In this document: one piece after another, positions 8,478 through 16,935 of the stretch
Position numbering within the stretch: the first letter of the stretch is position 1
Layout: every line of letters starts with the position of its first letter
Source: an uncultured Rubrobacteraceae bacterium
GTDB lineage: Bacteria; Actinomycetota; Rubrobacteria; Rubrobacterales; Rubrobacteraceae
NCBI GenBank assembly: GCA_902806015.1
Contig: CADCUZ010000159.1
Coordinates: 1-20,774, forward strand
Direction of reading: 5' to 3'
DNA: 20,774 nucleotides
Notes under the pieces: model-generated
Told to the model about the DNA's origin: nothing
Database searches by the model: none
Seen by the model: the letters and a program-made list of their open reading frames with translations, nothing else
Program-made: the position numbers and the translations under genes

Positions 8478-8843
8478 ATGACGAAGCTCGAAGGCAAGGC
8501 GGCGATGGTGGCGGGCGCCTCAAGCGACATCGGCGCGGCGACGGCCGATACCCTGGCGGCGGAGGGCGCGGCGGTCGTCGTCGCGGCCAGGCGGGAGGAC
8601 CAGCTCGCGGACCTGGCAAAAAGGACAGAGGGCAACGGCGGCCGGGGGCTGGCGGCGGCCTGCGACGTAGCCGACGAGGGCCAGGCGCACGGCTTGATCC
8701 GCAAGGCCGAGGGGAAGTTCGGCCGCGTGGACATCCTTGTCAACAACGCCGGCGTCATGCTCCTCTCCAGCGTCGGCAAGGGCCTCTCCGAAGCGTCGTG
8801 GCGCCGCATGTTCGACGTGAACGTGGCGTGTACATGGGCATAA
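8478..8843 (+). pseudogene. Truncated short-chain dehydrogenase (N-terminal half only)
   Basis: It begins with a good ribosome site (AGAAAGG, seven bases before the ATG) and follows the SDR fold for about 115 residues: a changed cofactor loop VAGASSDIG where TGASSGIG is expected, a CDVADEGQAH strand, and VDILVNNAGVM. It then stops after MFDVNV with the unrelated tail ACTWA. The catalytic Ser, Tyr-xxx-Lys and substrate half are missing, so it cannot be an active SDR. It is a close paralogue of the intact SDR that follows, most likely a tandem duplicate that lost its 3' half. Confidence 0.85.
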
Positions 8844-8844
8844 A

Positions 8845-8952
8845 CTGTTGGGGTTCCGCATCGTCCTCGCGCCCGACGGCGGCCAGGAGACGGAGTTCGC
8901 TATGGGTAACGAACCCGATTTGTCGGTGAACCTACGAAGACTGGGAAGGTGA
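8845..8952 (+). other. Short coding-like remnant between the two SDR genes
   Basis: Directly after the truncation point an open frame reads LLGFRIVLAPDGGQETEF and on to a TGA at 8950-8952. The GFRIVLAP ending resembles the C-terminus of formylglycine-generating-enzyme/SUMF-type proteins. It has no start or ribosome site of its own. It suggests that a deletion or insertion fused the first SDR to the end of another gene. The link is weak. Confidence 0.25.
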
Positions 8953-8957
8953 TGTAG

Positions 8958-9707
8958 ATGGCGCGCAGCTTGGACGGCAAGGTGGCGGTGGTTACCGGGG
9001 CCTCTAGCGGCATCGGTGAGGCCACGGTGCGCTCGCTCGCCGCCGAAGGAGCCGCGGTGGTGGCCGGGGCCCGACGCAAGGAGCGCCTCGACGGGCTCGT
9101 CGAAGAGGTCACCCAAGGGGGCGGGAAGGCGATCGCGGTCGAGTGCGATGTCACCGACGAGGGTCAGGCCCACGACCTCGTTCGGAGGGCGGTCGAGGAG
9201 TTCGGGCGCATCGACATCCTGGTCAACAACGCGGGCGTCATGCTCCTCTCGGCCGTGGGCAAGGGCCTCTCCGACCAGTGGAGGAACATGTTCGGGGTGA
9301 ACGTGCTCGGCCTCCTCTATGCCACCGATGCCGCCATAGAAGCGATGAGGCGGCAGGACGGCGGGCACCTCGTCAACATCTCCAGCGTCGCCGGACGCAA
9401 GGTAACGCGCGACTCGAGCGGGGTCTACGCCGGGACCAAGCACGCCGTCGGCGCCATCTCCGAGGGTCTCAGGCAGGAGTTACTCGCGGACAACATCCGC
9501 GTGACGATCGTGGAGCCCGGGGCGGTGGCCACGGAATTGCCCGACCACATCACGGACGAGGACGCCAGGGAGGGCTTGAGCGGTCTTCTCAAGCTCGAGA
9601 TCCTACGGGCGGAGGACGTAGCCAACGCGATCGTCTACGCGGTTACGCAGCCGCCGCGGGTGAGCGTGAACGAGATCCTGATCCGGCCCACCCAGCAGCC
9701 CGTCTAG
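8958..9707 (+). CDS. Short-chain dehydrogenase/reductase (SDR family)
   Basis: An NAD(P)-dependent oxidoreductase of the classical SDR type. Visible: cofactor loop TGASSGIG (13-20), Asp64 in ECDVTDEG, NNAG (90-93), Asn115, the catalytic Ser in NISSVAG (140-146), and Tyr157-xxx-Lys161 in YAGTK. The ARR after the second beta strand suggests NADP preference. Length 249 is standard. Residues such as EPGAVATELPDHI near the C-terminal third match the clavaldehyde/YdfG-like group often annotated as SDR NAD(P)-dependent oxidoreductase; the substrate cannot be told. AAGGTG lies upstream of the ATG. It follows the broken paralogue and is closed by a strong hairpin. Confidence 0.92.
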   Translation: MARSLDGKVAVVTGASSGIGEATVRSLAAEGAAVVAGARRKERLDGLVEEVTQGGGKAIAVECDVTDEGQAHDLVRRAVEEFGRIDILVNNAGVMLLSAVGKGLSDQWRNMFGVNVLGLLYATDAAIEAMRRQDGGHLVNISSVAGRKVTRDSSGVYAGTKHAVGAISEGLRQELLADNIRVTIVEPGAVATELPDHITDEDAREGLSGLLKLEILRAEDVANAIVYAVTQPPRVSVNEILIRPTQQPV

Positions 9708-10194: not shown

Positions 10195-10234
10195 CTTCTG
10201 GGAATTACTCTTCCATGCCCTCGGGTGAATAGGG
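10195..10234 (+). repeat. Intergenic repeat, copy A
   Basis: Left block CTTCTGGGAA, then five bases, then CTTCCATGCCCTCGGG and TGAATA. The ends CTGGG and CTCGG can pair with two G-U wobbles. It lies at the 3' end of the cold-shock gene and supplies its stop codon in the corrected frame. Confidence 0.75.
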
Positions 10235-10686
10235 ATGGGGATCACTGCCCCACGCCCCGGAATTTCGGGTGGTGCTCAACCGGACGAACGCAACCTTAGG
10301 GGCCTGATCTGCAGGGCCAGCGGTCCCTGCGCTCTCCCTGCGCACCTCGAACTCCAGCGGCAACCCTCTTCGAACTCGGCGGGATCGCACAGCAGGCCCG
10401 AGCGGTGAAAGAAGCGGTCCTCGCCCGAGGGGCTCTCGATGAACCCGTAGCCCCTTTCCTCGCCGAACCACCTCAGGCGACCCACCTCCCTCCTGGGCCT
10501 GTCAGGCCCCTGCTCAGGGCGGCCTTCCGGGCGTGTTGCGGGAGCAGAATCGGCGGGCTCGACCACGAGGGAACCCCTCCCGACCCTGACCGTCACCGAC
10601 TCGACCCCGGCCCAGTACCACGGCCATACGGGTTCCTGGGCGACCAAGGGGGGCAGCCCCCAGCCTTCCCGCTGGCCGTGGTCCAA
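10205..10686 (-). pseudogene. Cold-shock-domain protein with a frameshift
   Basis: A single cold-shock domain: GRLRWFGEERGYGFIESPS, with RNP1-like ERGYGFI (77-83) and RNP2-like DRFFHRS (90-96). These proteins bind single-stranded RNA or DNA. About ten codons later the frame is wrong (CRWSSRCAG); deleting one base near 10362-10372 from the comparison, the next minus frame continues properly with LPLEFEVRRESAG and PKVAFVRLS, then ends at 10205 inside repeat copy A. As written, the uncorrected frame stops at 10276. An unusual N-terminal extension of about 65 residues, including VWPWYWAGVESVTVRVG, precedes the domain. The TTG start at 10686 is uncertain. One missing base could also be a sequencing error. 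Confidence 0.7.
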
Positions 10687-10735
10687 GTACGCTCTGTGTC
10701 CGCCACGTGGATGTGGCGCTACCTGTAGCGCTCCC

Positions 10736-11272
10736 TTACGCCGGGGCTTCGGTCTGGGCCATGGTGCGGTCGTAGAGCAGCGCGGCCAGCACCCCCCCTA
10801 CTATCGGACCCACTACGTACACCCACACGCTCGTCAGGTCCCCGGCCACGATCATCGGGCCGATGGCGCGCACCGGGTTGACCGCCCCCCCGGTCACCGG
10901 CCCGGCGATGAAGACCCCCACCGCCAAAGCGAAGCCCACGGCTATGGGGGCGATCGCGGCAGGCGCCCTGTCGTCCGTGGCCACCGCCATCACCACGAAG
11001 ACCAGGATGAAGGTGCCCACCAGCTCGGCGATCCCCGCGCCGACCATGTGCGAGTCGTCTATCTGGCTGCCGTACAGGCCGCCGCCCCCCGACTCCTCCT
11101 GTTCCTTCTGGTCCATCGCCCGCCTGGTGGCGCGGCGGACGGTCTCTTCCATCCTGGCCTCTTCTTCCAGGCCGACCCCGCCACGAGCGCCACCGGAAGA
11201 GGCGCGCCGGGTTGCCATCCGCGCGTCGTCCGCCCCGTACACCTCGCCGCCCAAGCGAGGATCGGCCGGCAC
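10736..11272 (-). CDS. Half-length aquaporin (MIP family), single NPA-type motif
   Basis: The last 100 residues match the C-terminal half of MIP channels: AELVGTFILVFVVMA, then GPVTGGAVNPVRAIGP with NPV in place of the second NPA, then VYVVGPIVGGVLAALLYDR. Full channels have six helices and two NPA loops; here only three helices and one loop exist. The other half is replaced by a charged, Gly-rich N-terminus (MEETVRRATRRAMDQ, then GGGGLYGSQIDDSH). It may form dimers of half-channels or be non-functional. Start is unclear: GTG 11272; ATG about 11152 with AAGAGG five bases upstream is the best-supported; or ATG 11336 (MSTDFERDKREAEQRR) if a seven-G run at about 11285-11291 is one base too long. 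Confidence 0.75.
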   Translation of the reverse strand: MPADPRLGGEVYGADDARMATRRASSGGARGGVGLEEEARMEETVRRATRRAMDQKEQEESGGGGLYGSQIDDSHMVGAGIAELVGTFILVFVVMAVATDDRAPAAIAPIAVGFALAVGVFIAGPVTGGAVNPVRAIGPMIVAGDLTSVWVYVVGPIVGGVLAALLYDRTMAQTEAPA

Positions 11273-11387
11273 GCCTCGTTCGGCCCCCCCGTCTCTGCTC
11301 GGCTTCCCTCTTGTCCCTCTCGAAGTCCGTACTCATGCCTGCCGATATGGGTCTTCGTGGAGACCCCGGGACCTCTCAAAGGGCTCC

Positions 11388-11449
11388 AGACCCTCGAACG
11401 AAGGGCGGAGGAGGACCCGGGTCCTCCTCCGCCCTTCGTTCGAGGGTCT
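11388..11449. terminator. 62-bp perfect palindrome, probable two-way terminator
   Basis: AGACCCTCGAACGAAGGGCG (first 20 bases of the arm) begins a 31-base arm (11388-11418) that is followed at once by its exact reverse complement (11419-11449), with no loop. It starts 12 bases after the stop of the DUF2382 gene. It would form a very stable stem in RNA from either strand. There is no T-run. Confidence 0.8.
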
Positions 11450-11461
11450 CTCTAGAGAAGT

Positions 11462-12679
11462 TTAGTCGCCGCGCTCGGTGGCGTCCTCTATGTCTACCTC
11501 CTCGCGCCTGACGTCCTCCTCGACGACCTCGGTGCCCTCAACCACGTCCTTGCGGATGCGGATCTCCTCCTTGACCACGGCCCTCTTTGATACCACCACC
11601 TCGTCCTCGGCCAACGGCACGACGATCTCATCCTCGCCTATCTCGGCCCCCGAGGCCCCCCCGGAGACCGGCACCCGCTCCACGCGAGCCTCCTCCCGCC
11701 TAACGGGCACCTCCACCCTCTCGCGGTCGGTGCGCACGCGCTTGCGCACCCGTAAGGCGCCGGCCTCGCGCTCCCTGGTGCCGACCCTGAGCTCCTCCTC
11801 GCTCCTTTGCACCCTGATCTCGTCCTCGCCGGTGGCGCCGGGGGAGCCGGTCGTCGTGCCCGGGCCTTCCGTCCCGGCCGTCCCTACGCCGGCGCTTCTC
11901 TCTGGTGGATCGCCGTGGTAAGAGCCGTGGGCGCCGCCGTGCCCGCCGGCGGTGCCCGTTGGGCGCTTCAACCCGTAGTGGAGGCGGACCCGCTCCTCAA
12001 ACTCGGGCGTCATCTCCTCCTCCGCGAGGGTAGGGCCCTGCTCGACCACGTTGCTTGACCGTGCGACCACCATGCGCCCCCGCCGATCGTCGACCGTGAG
12101 GACCTCGGCGGGTACGAGCGCGGCCCTGGCGCCCAGGAGGTCCGTTTTGACCCCAACGTACTCGAGCTCGTCGTCCTCGTCGAGAAACAGGGCGTCCACC
12201 CCGCCAAGCTTCTTGCCGAGCTGGTCGTAGACCCCGTATTTTGCGTAGCGCTCTTCGTAACCCAAATCGCCTGTCTCCTCGTCCGTTTCGTCTGCGCCTC
12301 TGCCAGGCGCTTTGCTATCCTGGGTGGCGCCTTGCGTCGCCTGTCCGAGGCGGTCGACCGCCCCTCCAACGATCCCGGAGGCCAGGTCGACGGCCCCGCC
12401 CGTCGCCCGAGCCGCCGCGCCTGCTACGCCGGCAACGGGGCCCTCAGGTTGTTCCTTACTCGGCGGGCTAGGATCCTCGCCGTAGCAGCTGCGCTCGCGG
12501 ATGCGCCCGTCCTTGGCGTGGAGCAGGAACTCGGCCCCGTCCTTGCGGGCTATCTCCCGGCCCGCCTTGGCCGCCTGCGCCTGGGTGGGGTGGATGGAGG
12601 TGGCCCGCTCTTTGCCCTCGCGCACCACCGCCCAACCATCGTCGCGCGAAAGGACGTGCACCGGTCTATTGTTCGCCAA
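11462..12679 (-). CDS. DUF2188 / PRC-barrel / DUF2382 stress protein
   Basis: Three domains are visible. Residues 1-67 match DUF2188 (VHVLSRDDGWAVVREGKERA, then ATSIHPTQAQAAKAGREIA). Residues about 150-232 look like a PRC barrel (YDQLGKKLGGVDALFLDEDD). Residues about 286-398 are DUF2382, the YsnF-type domain: RSEEELRVGTREREAGALRV, then EDEIVVPLAEDEVVVSKRAV, ending VVEEDVRREEVDIE. Between them are Ala/Gly-rich linkers. Such proteins are tied to general stress responses; their biochemical role is unknown. The TTG start at 12679 lies four bases after the csbD stop with no ribosome site, so translation is probably coupled to csbD. Confidence 0.9.
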   Translation of the reverse strand: MANNRPVHVLSRDDGWAVVREGKERATSIHPTQAQAAKAGREIARKDGAEFLLHAKDGRIRERSCYGEDPSPPSKEQPEGPVAGVAGAAARATGGAVDLASGIVGGAVDRLGQATQGATQDSKAPGRGADETDEETGDLGYEERYAKYGVYDQLGKKLGGVDALFLDEDDELEYVGVKTDLLGARAALVPAEVLTVDDRRGRMVVARSSNVVEQGPTLAEEEMTPEFEERVRLHYGLKRPTGTAGGHGGAHGSYHGDPPERSAGVGTAGTEGPGTTTGSPGATGEDEIRVQRSEEELRVGTREREAGALRVRKRVRTDRERVEVPVRREEARVERVPVSGGASGAEIGEDEIVVPLAEDEVVVSKRAVVKEEIRIRKDVVEGTEVVEEDVRREEVDIEDATERGD

Positions 12680-12683
12680 GATA

Positions 12684-12926
12684 CTAGCGACCGGTCAGGG
12701 TGTCCGTGAGACCGCCCAGGCCCCCCTTGGCCTTGCGCCTCTGCCTGTCTCGCTCCTTCTCCGCCCGTTTGGCCTCGGCCTCGGCCTGCCTGGTCTTCTC
12801 CCTCTGCTCGGCCTCCTCCTCCGCTTGGGCCTTCTTCTGCTGGGCGCGGCCCTCTGCCTTCTTGGCCTCATCGCCTATCAGGGCGCCGTAGGCCTCCTTG
12901 GCTTTCCCCTTGACTTTATCCGACAT
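12684..12926 (-). CDS. CsbD-family stress protein
   Basis: The start MSDKVKGKAKEAYGALIGDE is the CsbD hallmark; the rest is a long, highly charged helix rich in Lys, Glu, Arg and Ala (KKAEGRAQQKKAQAEEEAEQ), probably a coiled coil, ending in GGLGGLTDTLTGR. CsbD of Bacillus is under sigma-B; its function is unknown. ATG 12926 has GGAGG six bases upstream. The 80 residues are longer than the usual 60-70 because of the Arg/Glu-rich tail. It is directly followed by the DUF2382 gene, forming a two-gene stress operon. Confidence 0.92.
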   Translation of the reverse strand: MSDKVKGKAKEAYGALIGDEAKKAEGRAQQKKAQAEEEAEQREKTRQAEAEAKRAEKERDRQRRKAKGGLGGLTDTLTGR

Positions 12927-13091
12927 CTTTGGCCTCCTCCGGATGCGGGTTGCCTTCTCGGGACGTTGGACGCACAAGAAGGCCGGGTTCGTTACACCCA
13001 GGCCACGCGGCGAGGGTTCGAACCGAGTCTGTCGGGCCCCGGCTCGTTGCTCACACCGGTCTGGTGGCGGCTAACCGCTACTTGCCAAGCC

Positions 13092-13175
13092 CTAAATAAG
13101 CCGGGAAAGCAACAGGAGCGCGACTATCACCAGGATGATAACTACCAATATGTAAACCAGGTTATCCGACCTCAC
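13092..13175 (-). CDS. 27-residue single-pass membrane peptide
   Basis: GTG 13175 opens a short frame starting MRSDNLVYILVVIILVIVAL, continuing hydrophobic to SRLI and a TAG stop. It has a polar start, one clean membrane span and a basic residue near the end, as in real single-span microproteins. A weak AGAGAGG lies about eight to fourteen bases upstream. It lies between csbD and the truncated TolB-like gene, both on the same strand. No family known to me. Confidence 0.55.
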   Translation of the reverse strand: MRSDNLVYILVVIILVIVALLLLSRLI

Positions 13176-13253
13176 GTCCCTAACCTCTCTCGCGTACCTC
13201 TCTATATCGGGTGCGCAGTCAATATGTTGAGAAACAACCACTGGCGCAACTTC

Positions 13254-13694
13254 TTAGAACCCCATCAAGGCGAAGTTCGCAGGACAACCCTTCCACGCAC
13301 CCGGGTGGATATATTCGGAGGAGCTGCTACTACGGACGACCCCCCAGGAAGGATAGACACCCTCAGTAACTTTAGACTCACCCCCACCGCCTACGTTGAC
13401 CGTATAGATCTCGGGGTTAAATCCACCGCCCCCTGTGTAGGCGATCTTCTTACCGTCGGCCGAGTAGTCGAGAGGGATGCCGCCAGCCCGGGTGTTGGTG
13501 ACTTTGGTCTTAGCGCTCCCATTGGCGTTGATCGTGTAGAGAACGCCGGAGTAGTCCACATAGGCTATCTTGCCGTTTTGTCCCGAGAAGGTAGCCTTAG
13601 CCTTCTTCGAGACCGCTAAGACCGCCACCATACAAGCCACCAACACCGCCGCGACCAGCAGCGCCGGTAAATAGAGCGTCCGTCTCCTTGTCAT
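13254..13694 (-). pseudogene. Truncated secreted TolB/PD40-type beta-propeller protein
   Basis: An N-terminal signal anchor (MTRRRTLYLPALLVAAVLVA and on to about residue 30) is followed by two propeller-type repeats: NGKIAYVDYSGVLYTINANG and GIPLDYSADGKKIAYTGGGG, with a third starting at PEIYTVNVGGGGESKV. Normal family members have five to seven repeats, about 300-400 residues. Here the repeat series ends at VYPSWG and the last 28 residues are unrelated; part of that tail is encoded by intergenic repeat copy E. The start ATG 13694 has GGGAG four bases upstream. Either the 3' part was deleted or the repeat inserted. Confidence 0.7.
13275..13313 (+). repeat. Intergenic repeat, copy E (most diverged)
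   Basis: AGTTCGCAGGACAACCC, then TTCCACGCACCCGGG and TGGATA. The right block matches the other copies almost completely; the left block is diverged. It lies inside the 3' coding tail of the truncated TolB-like gene. Confidence 0.6.
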
Positions 13695-13745
13695 GGCGCT
13701 CCCGTTTCTGTGGCGGAGGAAGAAGAGACCGCCCACCCCTGTCAT

Positions 13746-14045
13746 GTAACAACGGCATCATAATTCCCGCCTGGGAACGACGCATCCGTCCAGCGGCACA
13801 TCTTAAGGGACGCTCAGGGAACTGCCACTGGCCCGAACTACTTCCAAGACCCCCTCTCAAGGCGAGGTCCACAGGAGGGCAGGCATTCGGTCACCATGAG
13901 CCCCATCTGTTCCCTCCCTCTTAGGGCAGCCTCACCCTCCCAGACTTCCGGGAACTCCTCTTTCCACGCACTCGGGCGAATAAGGGCAAGAGGGCCAGGG
14001 CGGTCGTCCTGACCCTCTCGTAACGATGGTCGGGCGTCGCTTCTC
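13746..14045. other. Spacer between the TolB-like remnant and the phasin-like gene
   Basis: I see no gene in these 300 bases on either strand. Repeat copy B lies at 13945-13984. The remainder (13750-13940) has no ribosome site with a usable frame and no clear promoter. Confidence 0.5.
13945..13984 (+). repeat. Intergenic repeat, copy B
   Basis: CTTCCGGGAA, seven bases, TTCCACGCACTCGGG, then CGAATA. CCGGG can pair with CTCGG using one wobble. It lies 62 bases after the stop of the phasin-like gene. Confidence 0.75.
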
Positions 14046-14654
14046 TTAGGCAGCCCTTATCTTGCGATCCATCTGCTCGAGAAGCGTCTCGCGCTTCTTG
14101 TTGCGCTCCTCGTAGTCGCGAACCAGCTGCAGCTCCTCCACGGAGAGGTCGTCGAGGCGTTTTGAGGCCTCCTCGACGTTCATCTCGTCGTAGCCCTCTA
14201 TCGGGAAGGTGGCCGCCTCCGCAGCCCGTTCGGCGCCCTCGACGGTGGCGCCCACCGCCCCGGTCGCGGTGCCCAACAACCCCGTGGTCGTCTGCGTGAG
14301 GGTGCGCATGCCCTCCCGGGCGCTTTCTGTGGCCCGCTCGGTGCCGGACTGGTAGCGGGAGAAGGCGTCGTCCAGGAACTCCGCGTAGGCCTCGACGGAC
14401 TCCCGGGCCAGCGCCTGCCCGGTCTCCTGCTGCCTGGCGGCCTGCTCGGAGAGCTGCTGGGCGTTTGCGCGGCCTGCCTCGGTCTGCCCCCTGAGGTTGC
14501 CTGCCACGAGATCGGAGAACTCCTGGGCGCGTTGTCGCTGGCGCTCCGCCGACTCGGCGGCCTGCCCGTAGACGAGCCTGTATGAGTCGGCGAGGGTCTC
14601 GGCGAAGCGGGCGGCCGCCTCGTTGACGTCGCGCGCCTTTCCTCGGTCCATCAT
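14046..14654 (-). CDS. Phasin-like coiled-coil protein
   Basis: This 202-residue hydrophilic protein has long Ala/Glu/Gln-rich helices (about 8-125; for example QRQRAQEFSDLVAGNLRGQ), a Gly/Thr-rich turn (TTTGLLGTATGAVGATVEG, in part) and a separate C-terminal motif FPIEGYDEMNVEEASKRLDD followed by LSVEELQLVRDYEERNKKRE. That end motif recurs in actinobacterial helical proteins with phasin- or histone-like regions; its role is unknown. No signal peptide. ATG 14654 has AGGAG seven bases upstream. A hairpin with arms AAGGCACAAG lies in its leader. Phasins coat storage granules, but that function is only a guess here. Confidence 0.7.
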   Translation of the reverse strand: MMDRGKARDVNEAAARFAETLADSYRLVYGQAAESAERQRQRAQEFSDLVAGNLRGQTEAGRANAQQLSEQAARQQETGQALARESVEAYAEFLDDAFSRYQSGTERATESAREGMRTLTQTTTGLLGTATGAVGATVEGAERAAEAATFPIEGYDEMNVEEASKRLDDLSVEELQLVRDYEERNKKRETLLEQMDRKIRAA

Positions 14655-14671
14655 GCTTTTGCTCCTTCCCT

Positions 14672-14695
14672 AAGGCACAAGGCGTCTTGTGCTTT
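14672..14695 (-). promoter_or_regulatory. Leader hairpin before the phasin-like gene
   Basis: AAGGCACAAG (14672-14681) pairs with CTTGTGCTTT (14686-14695), with one wobble, around a 4-base loop. It ends six bases before the ribosome site on the minus strand, so it could regulate translation or end transcription from the gene upstream. Confidence 0.45.
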
Positions 14696-14733
14696 ATGCT
14701 TTGTACCCCGGTGGGGAGGGCGATACACCCGAA

Positions 14734-14772
14734 GTTCCGAGAATGCACCTTCCACGCACTCGGGTAAATAGG
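14734..14772 (+). repeat. Intergenic repeat, copy C
   Basis: GTTCCGAGAA, five bases, CTTCCACGCACTCGGG, then TAAATA. CCGAG and CTCGG pair perfectly; the preceding ACCCGAAG can also pair with CTCGGGT. It lies between the DUF4239 stop (14805) and the phasin-like leader. Confidence 0.75.
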
Positions 14773-14804
14773 TGTAGCCTGTGGCGGATGGGTAGGGCGA
14801 TGGG

Positions 14805-15611
14805 TCACCGGAGGTCGCTGAGCCTGCTAGTCTCGAACCTCTCCAGTATCAGCTCGAAGGCTCCCGTGCTGATACGCGCTCCTCCGGAGAAGGGGTGCTC
14901 CATGGCCCCAACGGTGAACAGCACCAGCCCTATCACCCCAGCCAACGCCGCCACCATCAGCCTGTGCGCCCACGTGCTCTCCAGCCCGAACAGGTACGTG
15001 AAGCCCACCACCGCCACCCCCGCCATGACCAGAACGACCCACAAGACGGCGGGTATGCCCTCGTGGGCGGCGACTAGGCGCATCCTCCTGGCGTCCGCCA
15101 GCTCCTCGACCTGGTCGAGCCCTTCGGCGTAGAGCGCCTCCTCGGCCGGCGCGCGTGGCTCGAACCCTTGAAGGGTCGCCCGGATGTCGTCGATTAGCAC
15201 CCACCCGGTCGGGGTCGCTTGCCCCTGCTCCATCAGGGGCGCTTGCCCCTCCCTCATCAGGGGCCACTCTTTGTGGACTACCTCCCGGGCGTAGGATCGG
15301 GCGAGCTCCTGCACCTGGCGGCGCTCGGGTTCGGGGAGCCGGTGGGCGAGCCAGAAGATCTCGGCCGTGGCGTTGGCCTCGCCCTCAACCGTCTCGCGGG
15401 CCCGCCCGAAGTCCTCCCACACGGCGATGACCACCAGCGCCAGCAGCACGGCATAGATGACGCCCAAGACGGCGTAGATGAACCCGGCCACGTCGTTGTG
15501 CTGCTGGCGGGAGGCGGTGGGCACCAGGAACTGGACCAGCGTGAGCCCCCCGACCGCGGCGAGGCAGACCCCGCCGACCACCAAAACGCCGTAAACGATG
15601 CTCGTCGCCAC
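14805..15611 (-). CDS. DUF4239 (bestrophin-like) membrane protein
   Basis: The 268-residue protein has two N-terminal membrane helices (about 5-30 and 43-66), a cytosolic helical middle with paired acidic and basic residues (RARETVEGEANATAEIFWLA), and two C-terminal helices (about 186-206 and 211-236). The signature RRMRLVAAHEGIPAVLWVVL, and AMEHPFSGGARI near the end, fits DUF4239, which is distantly related to bestrophin anion channels; function unproven. GTG 15611 follows a G-rich stretch that can serve as ribosome site. The broken NTF2-like gene ends four bases upstream, so both were probably co-transcribed. Confidence 0.85.
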   Translation of the reverse strand: MATSIVYGVLVVGGVCLAAVGGLTLVQFLVPTASRQQHNDVAGFIYAVLGVIYAVLLALVVIAVWEDFGRARETVEGEANATAEIFWLAHRLPEPERRQVQELARSYAREVVHKEWPLMREGQAPLMEQGQATPTGWVLIDDIRATLQGFEPRAPAEEALYAEGLDQVEELADARRMRLVAAHEGIPAVLWVVLVMAGVAVVGFTYLFGLESTWAHRLMVAALAGVIGLVLFTVGAMEHPFSGGARISTGAFELILERFETSRLSDLR

Positions 15612-15614
15612 GGG

Positions 15615-16165
15615 CTATCCCCCCTTAGCGCGCCGTATGAGGGGCTCCGAGGGCACGGAAGCGGGATCCATAAGCTTCCGCACGCCTTCGGCGCCCGCCA
15701 CGGGCAACGCCTCGGCGTCGAGCAGCCCGACCTGCACCAAGACCGAGGCCTGGTCCCAGTAGATGTGCTCGGAGGCTATCTTGCCCTCCTTGAGCTCCAC
15801 GACTCCCACCGTGGGCACCTCGGCCCTCCTGCCGGGGGGACGCCGGGCAGCATCCAGTCCATCTCAGTGGTGTAGGTGAAGCTGAGAATCATCTAGTCGA
15901 CCAGCCGATCCTCGCCGACGGTGCACGAGAGGAGGGCGACGCGCGTGTCCGGGGGGTTTGGGGTGGAGTGCTCTGAGTAGTACCTGCGCACCTCCTCTAG
16001 CCCCACGCCGCCGCTGAGCAGCAGGACGTTGATGTTGACCGGATCAGCGGTCATGATGGCCAGGGTCTTCTCTTTGGTGTGGTGCTCGAACTCGTGGGCG
16101 GCGTGCTCCTCCCACAGCTCGACCATGGCCCGCTGGGATGGCGTGTAGCCGCTTTCTTCGGACAC
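15615..16165 (-). pseudogene. Broken NTF2-like (SnoaL-type) protein
   Basis: N-terminal part (16165 to 15893): ELWEEHAAHEFEHHTKEKTL and GGVGLEEVRRYYSEH, a SnoaL/NTF2-like alpha+beta start. It ends with GEDRLVD then TAG at 15893-15895, but the same frame continues MILSFTYTTEMDWMLPGV; a one-base loss in the C-run near 15831-15840 then shifts to the frame reading GRRAEVPTVGVVELKEGKIA and SEHIYWDQASVLVQVGLLD. So one nonsense change (most simply GAG to TAG) and one frameshift disrupt a protein of about 183 residues. Start: GTG 16165 after AAGGAGG. Family members are small hydrolase- or isomerase-like folds of mixed function. Confidence 0.85.
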
Positions 16166-16291
16166 AGAAACCGTTAACCTCCTTGACCTCGTAGTTGGGG
16201 CGGTACCTACGTCAGTGAAGCAACGGTAACACCCGGGGACACAAGCTCGCATCCCCTAAATGGGCTAGTCACGAACCTCTTTCTCGACGAG

Positions 16292-16330
16292 CTTCCGAGA
16301 AATTCCCTTCCAAGCACTCGGGTGAATAAG
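16292..16330 (+). repeat. Intergenic repeat, copy D
   Basis: CTTCCGAGAA, five bases, CTTCCAAGCACTCGGG, then TGAATA. CCGAG/CTCGG pair perfectly. It lies between divergent genes: the broken NTF2-like gene on the minus strand and the zinc-ribbon gene on the plus strand. A CCGGCC/GGCCGG hairpin follows at 16341-16355. Confidence 0.75.
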
Positions 16331-16379
16331 CTCAGCAGGACCGGCCTCCGGCCGGGCCGGGGAGGTAGACTCCAGGGCT

Positions 16380-16604
16380 ATGGGCATGGAGAACCTCTAC
16401 GGATGCTGCCCCGTGTGCGGCCCGAACGACGGTTATCTGGGCGTCGGACAGGAGCAGTGGTTCTACTGCTCGGTGCACAAGAAGAGGGGGCTTTTCGGGT
16501 TCGGCTCCTTCGGCGCCGCCCACCGAGCGACGCGATCCGGGGTCCCCGCCCAAGAGTTCCTCGCCGACTTGCACCCCGTGCCCATGAAGAGGAGCCGTTC
16601 CTAG
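16380..16604 (+). CDS. Small zinc-ribbon-like protein, altered C-terminus
   Basis: The first 37 residues, MENLYGCCPVCGPNDGYLGV then GQEQWFYCSVHKKRG, match a common small bacterial protein of about 75 residues with pattern CPVCG...DGY...W..C..HK. Two CxxC-type pairs and a His suggest metal binding. In the relatives I remember, HK is followed by a tryptophan-rich SNLFSSW segment; here it is GLFGFGSFGAAHRATRSGVP instead, so the second half may be frameshifted or diverged. ATG 16386 has AGGG eight bases upstream, while ATG 16380 lies two codons earlier. It is transcribed away from the broken NTF2-like gene. Confidence 0.6.
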   Translation: MGMENLYGCCPVCGPNDGYLGVGQEQWFYCSVHKKRGLFGFGSFGAAHRATRSGVPAQEFLADLHPVPMKRSRS

Positions 16605-16623
16605 CACACCAGCATCCCGCGGC

Positions 16624-16896
16624 TCATGTCTCCGCCCGCTCGTCGTCCTCGGCCAGGCGTATCCAGCCCACCACGCTCCAGGGGTAGAAGTAGCGCGAGA
16701 AGCTGCCCTGATCTCGGTGGCGCGTCACCAGCATGACGATGCCCCGCTCGTTGACGTCTTCGAGGTACACGGGGGCGGCGGCCCGCAGGTCGCTGGGAAG
16801 CGTCTCGGTGGTCTCGAGCATGACCCCCTGCCCGATCCACGCCTCGGGGATCCTGCCTTCCGGGTTCGAGGCACCAGGCCGCTCCCTATCCATCAT
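16624..16896 (-). CDS. Small protein, possible Sm-like barrel
   Basis: This 90-residue protein has an excellent ribosome site (AGAGGAGG, five bases before the ATG at 16896). After a polar N-terminus come short beta-type segments: AWIGQGVMLETTET, then APVYLEDVNERGIVMLVTR, then FSRYFYPWSVVGWIRLAEDD. The order (variable strand, acidic turn, ERGIVML strand, FYPWS then a final hydrophobic strand) resembles Sm-like RNA-binding barrels such as the Hfq/LSm superfamily. This fold is inference. It ends convergent with the zinc-ribbon gene, 19 bases apart. Confidence 0.6.
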   Translation of the reverse strand: MMDRERPGASNPEGRIPEAWIGQGVMLETTETLPSDLRAAAPVYLEDVNERGIVMLVTRHRDQGSFSRYFYPWSVVGWIRLAEDDERAET

Positions 16897-16935
16897 AGCT
16901 TCCTCCTCTGATCACTCTCTTCCCGCAAGTGTAGA

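Follow-up and report, generated by a model that had tools for sequence, protein, structure and literature searches.

A directional intergenic repeat as the probable recombination site of an integron-like gene-cassette system in Rubrobacteraceae

Results

Overview

An intergenic repeat in an uncultured Rubrobacteraceae bacterium is probably (about 0.73 by our estimate) the site at which a gene-cassette system resembling integrons recombines; so far the system has been found in some members of the Rubrobacteraceae. Among systems that gather individual genes as exchangeable cassettes, integrons are the best known. In the system proposed here, a cassette would usually comprise one gene, its flanking DNA and a site at its right-hand end, as read on the plus strand of the window (the whole 20,774-nucleotide stretch of DNA analyzed). 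Class-1 sites would separate cassettes, as attC sites do, while class-2 sites would stand at the start of an array, as attI does. The window, on this reading, is part of one cassette array of the system. No description of the repeat stood among the literature matches listed, in the portions of text that these offered.

Five copies of the element in the window

The original prediction placed five copies in the window, all on the plus strand, and a combined pattern and profile scan bore this out. Allowing up to three mismatches, the conserved right block matched five times, against 0.25 matches expected by chance, and none of 100 shuffles of the window reached five. Scored with a position weight matrix built from copies in other genomes, the window yielded those five copies and no others, with the next-best place at -12.1 bits and the best score in 40 first-order Markov random sequences at 6.2 bits. 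The left block that had been predicted is present, but its sequence and spacing required correction: it is a TTCNNNGAA arm, most often separated by 5 bases from a core of 22 bp, CTTCCACGCACTCSGGTGAATA (132 of 231 copies). Element A (10196-10231; 45.8 bits) comprises the arm TTCTGGGAA at 10196-10204 and a core at 10210-10231. Element B (13251-13311; 50.9 bits) carries a first arm, TTCTTAGAA, at 13251-13259, an imperfect second arm, TTCGCAGGA, at 13276-13284, and a core at 13290-13311. The spacer of element C (13946-13982; 20.6 bits) is one base longer, between the arm TTCCGGGAA at 13946-13954 and the core at 13961-13982. Elements D (14735-14770; 59.2 bits) and E (16293-16328; 53.4 bits) share the arm TTCCGAGAA, at 14735-14743 and 16293-16301, with cores at 14749-14770 and 16307-16328, respectively. 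No Rfam family matched the window above its gathering score.

The DNA between these elements consists of minus-strand units, several of which recur elsewhere. Unit A-B (10232-13245), at 3 kb and with several genes, exceeds the usual length, perhaps through loss of an element; it holds an ORF (10719-11336), a DUF2188/PRC/DUF2382 protein (11462-12679) and a CsbD-like protein (12684-12977; below the curated cut-off), and one 203-bp stretch is 80% alike to a unit in locus L036. Unit B-C (13312-13945) contains a short ORF (13254-13745) with weak, below-cut-off similarity to TolB propellers, the 3′ end of which runs through element B, and is 73% alike over 260 bp to a unit of L107; the unit to the right of element B also occurs at L107:2602. 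Unit C-D (13983-14734) carries a single gene of 202 amino acids (14046-14654) and resembles units in L048, L058 and L186 of genomes G001, G022 and G023, with 76-84% of the DNA identical over 499-638 bp; the unit to the right of element C was also found at L048:3139. Unit D-E (14771-16292) opens with a bestrophin-like gene (14805-15611; PF14023), followed by short ORFs at 15615-15818, which has a weak ketosteroid-isomerase-like match below the cut-off, and at 15893-16252; the two are possibly pieces of a broken gene. This unit is 66-73% identical over 410-754 bp to units in L002, L073 and L095, and the unit to the right of element D was also found at L073:543 and L002:7407. Beyond element E, the start of a further unit (16329-16920) holds ORFs on the plus (16380-16604) and minus (16624-16896) strands and shows homology to part of a unit in L141 and to the DNA on the left of element L059:958. 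Because no element follows E in the window, the far end of this unit is approximate. Copies A and E had been thought to supply the 3′ coding tail of a damaged gene. In a list of ORFs of at least 60 amino acids this held for A, in which the ORF at 10205-10471 ends, but not for E, the second case being B.

Copies in relatives form one-direction arrays

The repeat extends well beyond the five copies of the window. Relatives hold up to 122 copies per genome (G022, 122; G024, 62; G001, 60; G021, 56; G023, 47; G018, 34; G002, 18), and the same pattern read backwards occurs only once in G001 and not at all in G002. A sample of 357 genomes from elsewhere in the phylum contained none, and a virus collection had no exact match of the core. 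Elements were weakly enriched at contig ends (12 of 169 within 150 bp, against 6.9 expected), an enrichment too slight for us to use as evidence.

Across 121 loci, most of them in regions chosen for having at least two copies, neighboring copies 50-4000 bp apart shared an orientation in 176 of 188 pairs; the corresponding figure for adjacent pairs in the first 81 loci was 161 of 171. The genes between them, identified with a home-made caller in mostly draft assemblies, follow no such rule: 98 run with the element and 131 against it, and the gene strand differs between neighboring one-gene units in 12 of 33 cases. The prediction that copies face against the genes is thus true of the window but does not generalize to relatives, and a role as an mRNA 3′-end element, also put forward originally, is contradicted because the direction of the element is kept and that of the genes is not. 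Elements rarely fall within a called gene (2 of 304). Among 176 intervals, 105 contain one gene, 34 two, 22 none and 15 three or more, and the scanned units are functionally mixed. In two cases a unit flanked by elements on both sides occurs at two loci: L058/L072 (91% alike over 678 bp) and L057/L064 (86% over 680 bp).

Homology at junctions stops at the element

To be counted as a strict junction pair, two loci had to reach 72% identity or more over the 100 bp adjoining the element in a gapped comparison. Twenty-seven pairs qualified, with the left flank shared in 13 and the right flank in 14, and in all 27 the unshared flank was 42-53% alike, which is background (random 47%, s.d. 4). Element identity averaged 76% in the left-shared pairs, 8 of 13 exceeding the random 95th percentile, although three of these 13 pairs consist of class-2 sites with their own extension in common, and pairs overlap in membership. 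In right-shared pairs element identity averaged 63%, equal to the random value, and none of 14 exceeded that percentile. Judged from these alignments, the site was shown to travel with its left-hand DNA and not with the right-hand DNA. Left-shared elements are often less alike than the flank itself, as in L056/L103 (flank 92%, element 67%). A looser, ungapped comparison that included weak pairs (63 pairs, 60 of them one-sided) linked the element to neither side; about 7 of its 21 left-only alignments lacked clear homology near the element, and the stricter gapped count supersedes it. The window contributes to none of the 27 strict pairs, its units matching others at 66-84%, with homology beginning 37-214 bp from the window elements.

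Two further ideas about these junctions were discarded. L056/L103 could not be read as an insertion/deletion pair, as its right-hand units match at no more than 68%, and then for just part of their length; and a target-duplication model, by which a single target would have been copied to give both flanking elements, was rejected because adjacent elements are hardly more alike than random (largest z, 2.2). Taken with the one-direction arrays, the mostly single-gene intervals and the distinct start site described below, the one-sided homology gives good support to the proposal, made at the outset, of a recombination site that bounds single-gene cassettes.

Two site classes share a core

Class-1 sites consist of up to two TTCNNNGAA arms and the 22-bp core, whereas class-2 sites have one arm, a TATGCAnGATCCTGCAT block on the left and the same core; four window copies score as class 1 and element D falls between the classes. 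Two exact arms are present in 72 of 243 class-1 copies and in none of 42 class-2 sites. When class-2 sites with at least 4 kb to their left were considered, 25 of 27 had no upstream element, as against 24 of 117 class-1 sites and 1 of 9 sites with an intermediate score. Cassettes would be added at class-2 sites.

Within the core, CTTCYASG and GGTGAATA flank a 6-bp centre that falls into classes, CACTCS, AGGTTG and ACGTAC. We propose that the site is bound by a protein as double-stranded DNA and that this protein would be a site-specific recombinase; these flanked, class-forming centres make a tyrosine recombinase the most likely type. Crossover would take place close to, or at, the 3′ end of the core. 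Putative cleavage and crossover in the core by a tyrosine recombinase are suggested, on sequence grounds, by the centre classes, the flanking half-sites and a breakpoint located where the core ends on its 3′ side.

Pairing within the element is at background

A conserved stem between CCGRG and CTCGG had been predicted. Among 184 distinct copies, 74.5% of its five pairs can form, compared with 75.5% when the halves are shuffled, and a helix between the two arms fared no better (89.7% against 89.1% shuffled; 57 copies). The covariation list from 136 copies contained no helix, only a few column pairs with some pairing excess. Both helices were therefore rejected as pairing at the shuffled level, and the suggested selection on RNA or cruciform structure, which depended on the stem, is likewise unsupported; the lack of RNA-like covariation had itself been named as a result that would tell against the prediction, whereas the other two such results, a total of five copies and an origin from one duplicated gene, were not borne out.

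Candidate enzymes do not track the element

Among 39 family genomes, many of them draft, no protein exceeded the cut-off of the integron integrase model TIGR02249 in the element-rich genomes; the single genome with a hit, G031, is not element-rich and its gene has an internal stop. Nor did any of 15 proteins beside class-2 sites at 12 loci belong to a recombinase or transposase family. A tyrosine recombinase gene adjoins the class-2 site of L040, and a remnant lies beside that of L100. The L040 gene encodes a phage-type integrase whose family occurs in all 39 genomes and so does not track the element. Among 34 recombinase loci with flanks of about 1.5 kb, elements occurred only at the L040 integrase's own locus. 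Elements occur in 11 of 25 tyrosine-recombinase regions, mostly at a distance of 2-6 kb, but several of these regions had been chosen for that reason and their proteins are of mixed kinds. Another family of tyrosine recombinases (L075, L124, L125) was set aside because it is strong in genomes that lack a strict core match and reaches only a 27% match in G001, as were the serine recombinases, which are present in 35 of 39 genomes and absent from element-bearing G020. No tyrosine recombinase, serine recombinase or integron integrase candidate in the family genomes thus tracks the element as a dedicated enzyme would.

Discussion

Alternative explanations

A dispersed non-autonomous transposable element, or its single ends, could have settled between genes, with homologous recombination among the copies shuffling the genes. 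This role, one of those originally suggested, is unlikely as we weigh it, yet it stays in view as a weaker rival because two pairs of array-start sites bound short units: the class-2 pairs in L036 (1857-/2428+) and L054 (5933-/6502+) face outwards from units of 593 and 591 bp without a called gene. The two ends of the L036 unit form inverted repeats (about 119-148 bp; 78-79% alike), although no target duplication was seen there by eye, and insertion-sequence-like ends adjoin some cores. Among the loci listed, 8 neighbor pairs face outwards, against 176 same-direction pairs. Independent insertions, however, would yield neither the strong bias towards one direction among neighbors whose genes run both ways (176 of 188 pairs) nor a class of array-start sites. 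The difference in exact arms argues that class-1 sites are not truncated class-2 sites, and crossovers spread over a repeat do not predict linkage of the element to its left flank alone. A far less likely explanation, that the copies are what is left of a single duplicated gene or of a tandem duplication, can draw on the ORF 3′ ends formed by copies A and B; we consider it scarcely credible, given that in every strict pair one side loses its similarity at the element and that hundreds of copies separate mixed genes.

We regard it as very unlikely that the arrays are a diverged true integron, that is, a CALIN made by an integron integrase encoded elsewhere in the genome. The array architecture, the site at one unit end and the attI-like start site would fit, and we also counted in its favor that a few CALIN are reported in Actinobacteria in the available portion of a survey (PMC9024848). 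The integrase model, however, exceeds its cut-off only in the interrupted gene of G031, 1 of 39 genomes; GTTRRRY, which together with the inverse core RYYYAAC defines attC in the excerpt available of an earlier study (PMC3053210), occurs in 20 of 300 cores (19 of 287 in another count); and neither a conserved fold nor covariation was found, unlike in attC sites, which the same part of the survey describes as variable in sequence and kept by structure (PMC9024848). A regulatory element of the transcript (promoter or operator, terminator, or 3′-end RNA element of co-regulated genes) is marginally less likely again. It would account for the window copies, which all face against genes and lie between or at gene ends, and for a GC-rich inverted repeat just past the core in several relatives. 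The mixed gene orientation in relatives speaks against it and led us to reject a promoter or terminator role, and the copies mark junctions of unrelated, functionally mixed units.

Relation to known systems

The preferred reading, a recombination site of gene cassettes, is best set beside sedentary chromosomal integrons, with their attI, gene-attC arrays and IntI. Shared features are mostly single, mixed genes between same-direction sites, a site at one unit end with a different site at the array start, and units common to several genomes beside other neighbors. Integron genes are biased towards the direction of the site, whereas genes here face both ways about equally. There are also several array starts per genome without a common integrase beside them, and the sites conserve neither GTTRRRY nor a folded strand. 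We call the system integron-like but not an integron, since the element-rich genomes have no integrase above the cut-off and the attC motif is so infrequent. CALIN likewise are cassette arrays without an adjoining integrase, but the sites here do not have the attC core motif or its structural conservation.

Whether the system arose independently of integrons is, to us, close to an even call. Under such an origin, conserved double-stranded sites instead of folded attC sites, a separate start site and an as yet unrecognized enzyme would shuffle single genes in soil Rubrobacteraceae, each genome having dozens of such loci, and the centre classes may act as compatibility groups. The IntegronFinder 2.0 survey, in the portion available, reports no complete integron in Actinobacteria (PMC9024848). 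An independent origin, if true, would mean a second, unrelated route to building arrays in a phylum from which integrons are nearly absent, and more than one evolutionary origin of cassette platforms; it would bring a new recombination site and, once the enzyme is found, a new enzyme, and would explain accessory-gene exchange among these bacteria through sites that are easy to search for.

Other repeat families resemble the element in part. REP/BIME sequences with RAYT transposases also occur as dozens of intergenic copies per genome, and insertion-sequence-like ends adjoin some of the sites here, but the core lacks a conserved palindrome, orientation does not alternate and the sites coincide with junctions between gene units. 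The two class-2 pairs around 591-593 bp units, one with clear inverted ends, recall MITEs, whereas most copies are same-direction sites with a gene between them. Xer/dif modules are likewise single-gene-sized and bounded by tyrosine-recombinase sites, which are putative here; pdif sites alternate in orientation, and the sites of this system keep one direction.

Sequence and distribution of the repeat

The five intergenic copies claimed by the original prediction were confirmed by direct search and by a profile built solely from copies in other genomes. Under this profile, elements A–E (10196..10231, 13251..13311, 13946..13982, 14735..14770 and 16293..16328, all on the + strand) scored 20.6–59.2 bits; the next best window position reached −12.1 bits, and the maximum over 40 random sequences was 6.2 bits. 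Read along the window's + strand, the repeat comprises arm(s) TTCNNNGAA, a spacer of usually 5 bases and a 22-bp core CTTCCACGCACTCSGGTGAATA, with conservation falling off immediately past the core's last A. The spacing was exactly 5 bases in 132 of 231 copies (core with at most 4 mismatches). A second arm, approximately 25 bp further left, was common, and 72 of the 243 class-1 copies (classes defined below by site score) carried two exact arms. The predicted stem was rejected, as its five pairs formed at 74.5% versus 75.5% in shuffled sequences (184 copies); an arm–arm helix likewise showed no excess (89.7% versus 89.1% shuffled, 57 copies). Selection is on sequence rather than fold.

The hexamer at the core's centre fell into classes, with counts biased because the search was for the commonest core form: CACTCC (98), CACTCG (91), AGGTTG (14), CACTTG (13) and rarer forms among 300 elements; ACGTAC occurred in 4 of 295. 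The flanking CTTCYASG and GGTGAATA were largely conserved. The core thus appears to resemble tyrosine-recombinase half-sites around an overlap region, an analogy from which we infer the recombination chemistry.

The window's bestrophin-like protein placed it in Rubrobacteraceae, the closest of five loci being AVDCRST_MAG58 (72% identity). Allowing up to 2 mismatches, the pattern matched 29 of the 39 family genomes, with a backwards control itself yielding up to 2 per genome. Twelve genomes held at least 7 matches: G022 (122), G024 (62), G001 (60; control 1), G021 (56), G023 (47), G018 (34), G002 (18; control 0), G009 (15), G019 (12), G010 (11), G035 (8) and G020 (7). A stricter pattern matched 15 of 396 phylum genomes, every one within the family and none among the 357 others (G040–G396). 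No exact match was found in the virus collection, and a literature search covering few subscription papers or preprints returned no description of this repeat.

Elements probably delimit gene cassettes

We examined 121 loci from eleven family genomes, mostly picked for at least 2 copies or a recombinase, with genes called by a home-made codon model. Elements were present in 107 loci, and only 2 of the 304 lay within a called gene. Neighbouring elements 50–4000 bp apart shared orientation in 176 of 188 pairs, and these 176 intervals held one gene (105), two (34), none (22) or three or more (15). Genes lay on the element's strand in 98 cases and opposite in 131, and strands differed between neighbouring one-gene units in 12 of 33; a first pass had given 161 of 171 same-direction pairs at any distance, with 80 genes on the same strand and 112 opposite. 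Element direction is constant and gene direction is not, as expected of a cassette array. This contradicts the mRNA 3′-end role listed as a possibility in the original prediction, as well as a promoter or terminator role. Scanned array genes included cupin, SnoaL, Crp-type regulator, MFS, methyltransferase, formate transporter and sulfatase families, and several without any family match.

Homologous DNA blocks shared between loci stop at elements; those of L058/L072 (91% over 678 bp) and L057/L064 (86% over 680 bp) are flanked by an element on either side at each of the two loci. In a loose count, which includes some weak and many non-independent pairs, 63 element pairs shared a flank. Sharing was one-sided in 60 of them, on the left in 21 and on the right in 39; the remaining three are tandem copies on a single contig. 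Under a strict threshold (at least 72% identity over 100 bp beside the element, gaps allowed), the left flank was shared by 13 pairs and the right flank by 14. The opposite flank was 42–53% alike in every one of these 27 pairs, with a random level of 47% (sd 4). Element identity averaged 76% in left-shared pairs, 8 of 13 exceeding the random 95th percentile (75%), and 63% in right-shared pairs, of which 0 of 14 did so (random mean, 63%); three left-shared pairs (L036/L108, L036/L110 and L054/L176) are class-2 sites with a common extension of their own. Because identity was raised in left-shared pairs only, the site travels with its left-hand DNA. Right-hand homology begins directly past the core, and we infer from these comparisons that the unit is a gene plus its right-hand site, joined at the core's 3′ end. 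In one exception, L056:308/L103:2198, left flanks were 92% alike and elements just 67%, indicating that left-edge exchange or subsequent replacement occurs as well. Together, the same-direction arrays and one-sided junctions support one of the roles offered in the original prediction, a recombination site bounding cassettes.

After two different elements near contig ends in G024 (L076:38 and L081:9672), the right flank was 99% identical, perhaps reflecting strain variation inside the assembly.

A second site class marks array starts

The score for block TATGCAnGATnnTGnATnCGAACTTC left of the core was bimodal, dividing 300 elements into 42 class-2 (at least 15), 243 class-1 (below 13) and 15 intermediate sites; window copies scored 9, 11, 10, 13 and 11, none being class 2. 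Where 4 kb or more of left-hand sequence was available, no upstream element was present for 25 of 27 class-2, 24 of 117 class-1 and 1 of 9 intermediate sites. Class 2 therefore takes the position of attI, at the start of arrays. The system works like an integron but departs from one in defining features that were tested: the integrase, an integrase beside the start site, conserved structure and the attC core motif, which only 20 of 300 cores carry.

Outward-facing class-2 pairs bound L036:1857-2449 (593 bp) and L054:5933-6523 (591 bp), which contain no called gene and from which the array leaves on one side only. The L036 unit ends in inverted repeats of about 119–148 bp (78–79% alike); in L054 the inversion is limited to the site blocks themselves. 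These units may be a carrier unit or transposon remains. Separately, three kinds of shared insertion-sequence-like ends adjoin the core's left end at about the same place, in the arm's stead (L047:3658, L049:7407, the same as in L002, and L052:5098; L047:4031 and L044:3992; L048:1929 and L179:7191). The ORF following this end in L002 is presumably an IS701-like transposase, and we suspect site-targeted insertion sequences at cores.

Search for the recombinase

No enzyme that tracks the element emerged in the family genomes from integron integrases, tyrosine and serine recombinases or class-2 neighbours. The integron integrase model exceeded its cut-off in 1 of 39 genomes, G031, which is not element-rich; this match (C12:2896-3827, locus L192; 300 bits) has an internal stop, and its contig may be contamination. 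Elements occurred in 11 of 25 tyrosine-recombinase regions, mostly 2–6 kb away, several regions having been picked for elements and the proteins being mixed, many phage-like. A tyrosine recombinase lies 264 bp from the class-2 site of L040, but all 39 genomes carry members of its family, and across 34 loci with short flanks (L192–L225) elements lay only at this recombinase's own locus. A second tyrosine recombinase family was rejected, being strong in G025, G029, G031 and G032, all without a strict core match, and matching at only 27% in G001; serine recombinases, found in 35 of 39 genomes and absent from G020, were also rejected. Fifteen proteins adjoining class-2 sites (12 loci) included no recombinase. 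The enzyme may be encoded on unbinned DNA, or may be a host Xer protein.

Units in the window

Between successive window elements, unit C-D has relatives in G001, G022 and G023 loci (76–84% DNA identity), D-E in L002, L073 and L095 (66–73%) and B-C in L107 (73% over 260 bp). By the looser criteria, each of elements B, C and D shares a single flank with those loci; the matches begin 37–214 bp from the window's elements, so that no window element is among the strict pairs. The DUF2382 gene is separated from the ORF at 10719-11336 by a perfect, spacerless 31-bp inverted repeat (11388-11449), possibly a terminator. Two adjacent short-chain dehydrogenase genes (8478-9707) have a common 155-nt stretch at 77% identity, possibly a tandem duplication with a short first copy.
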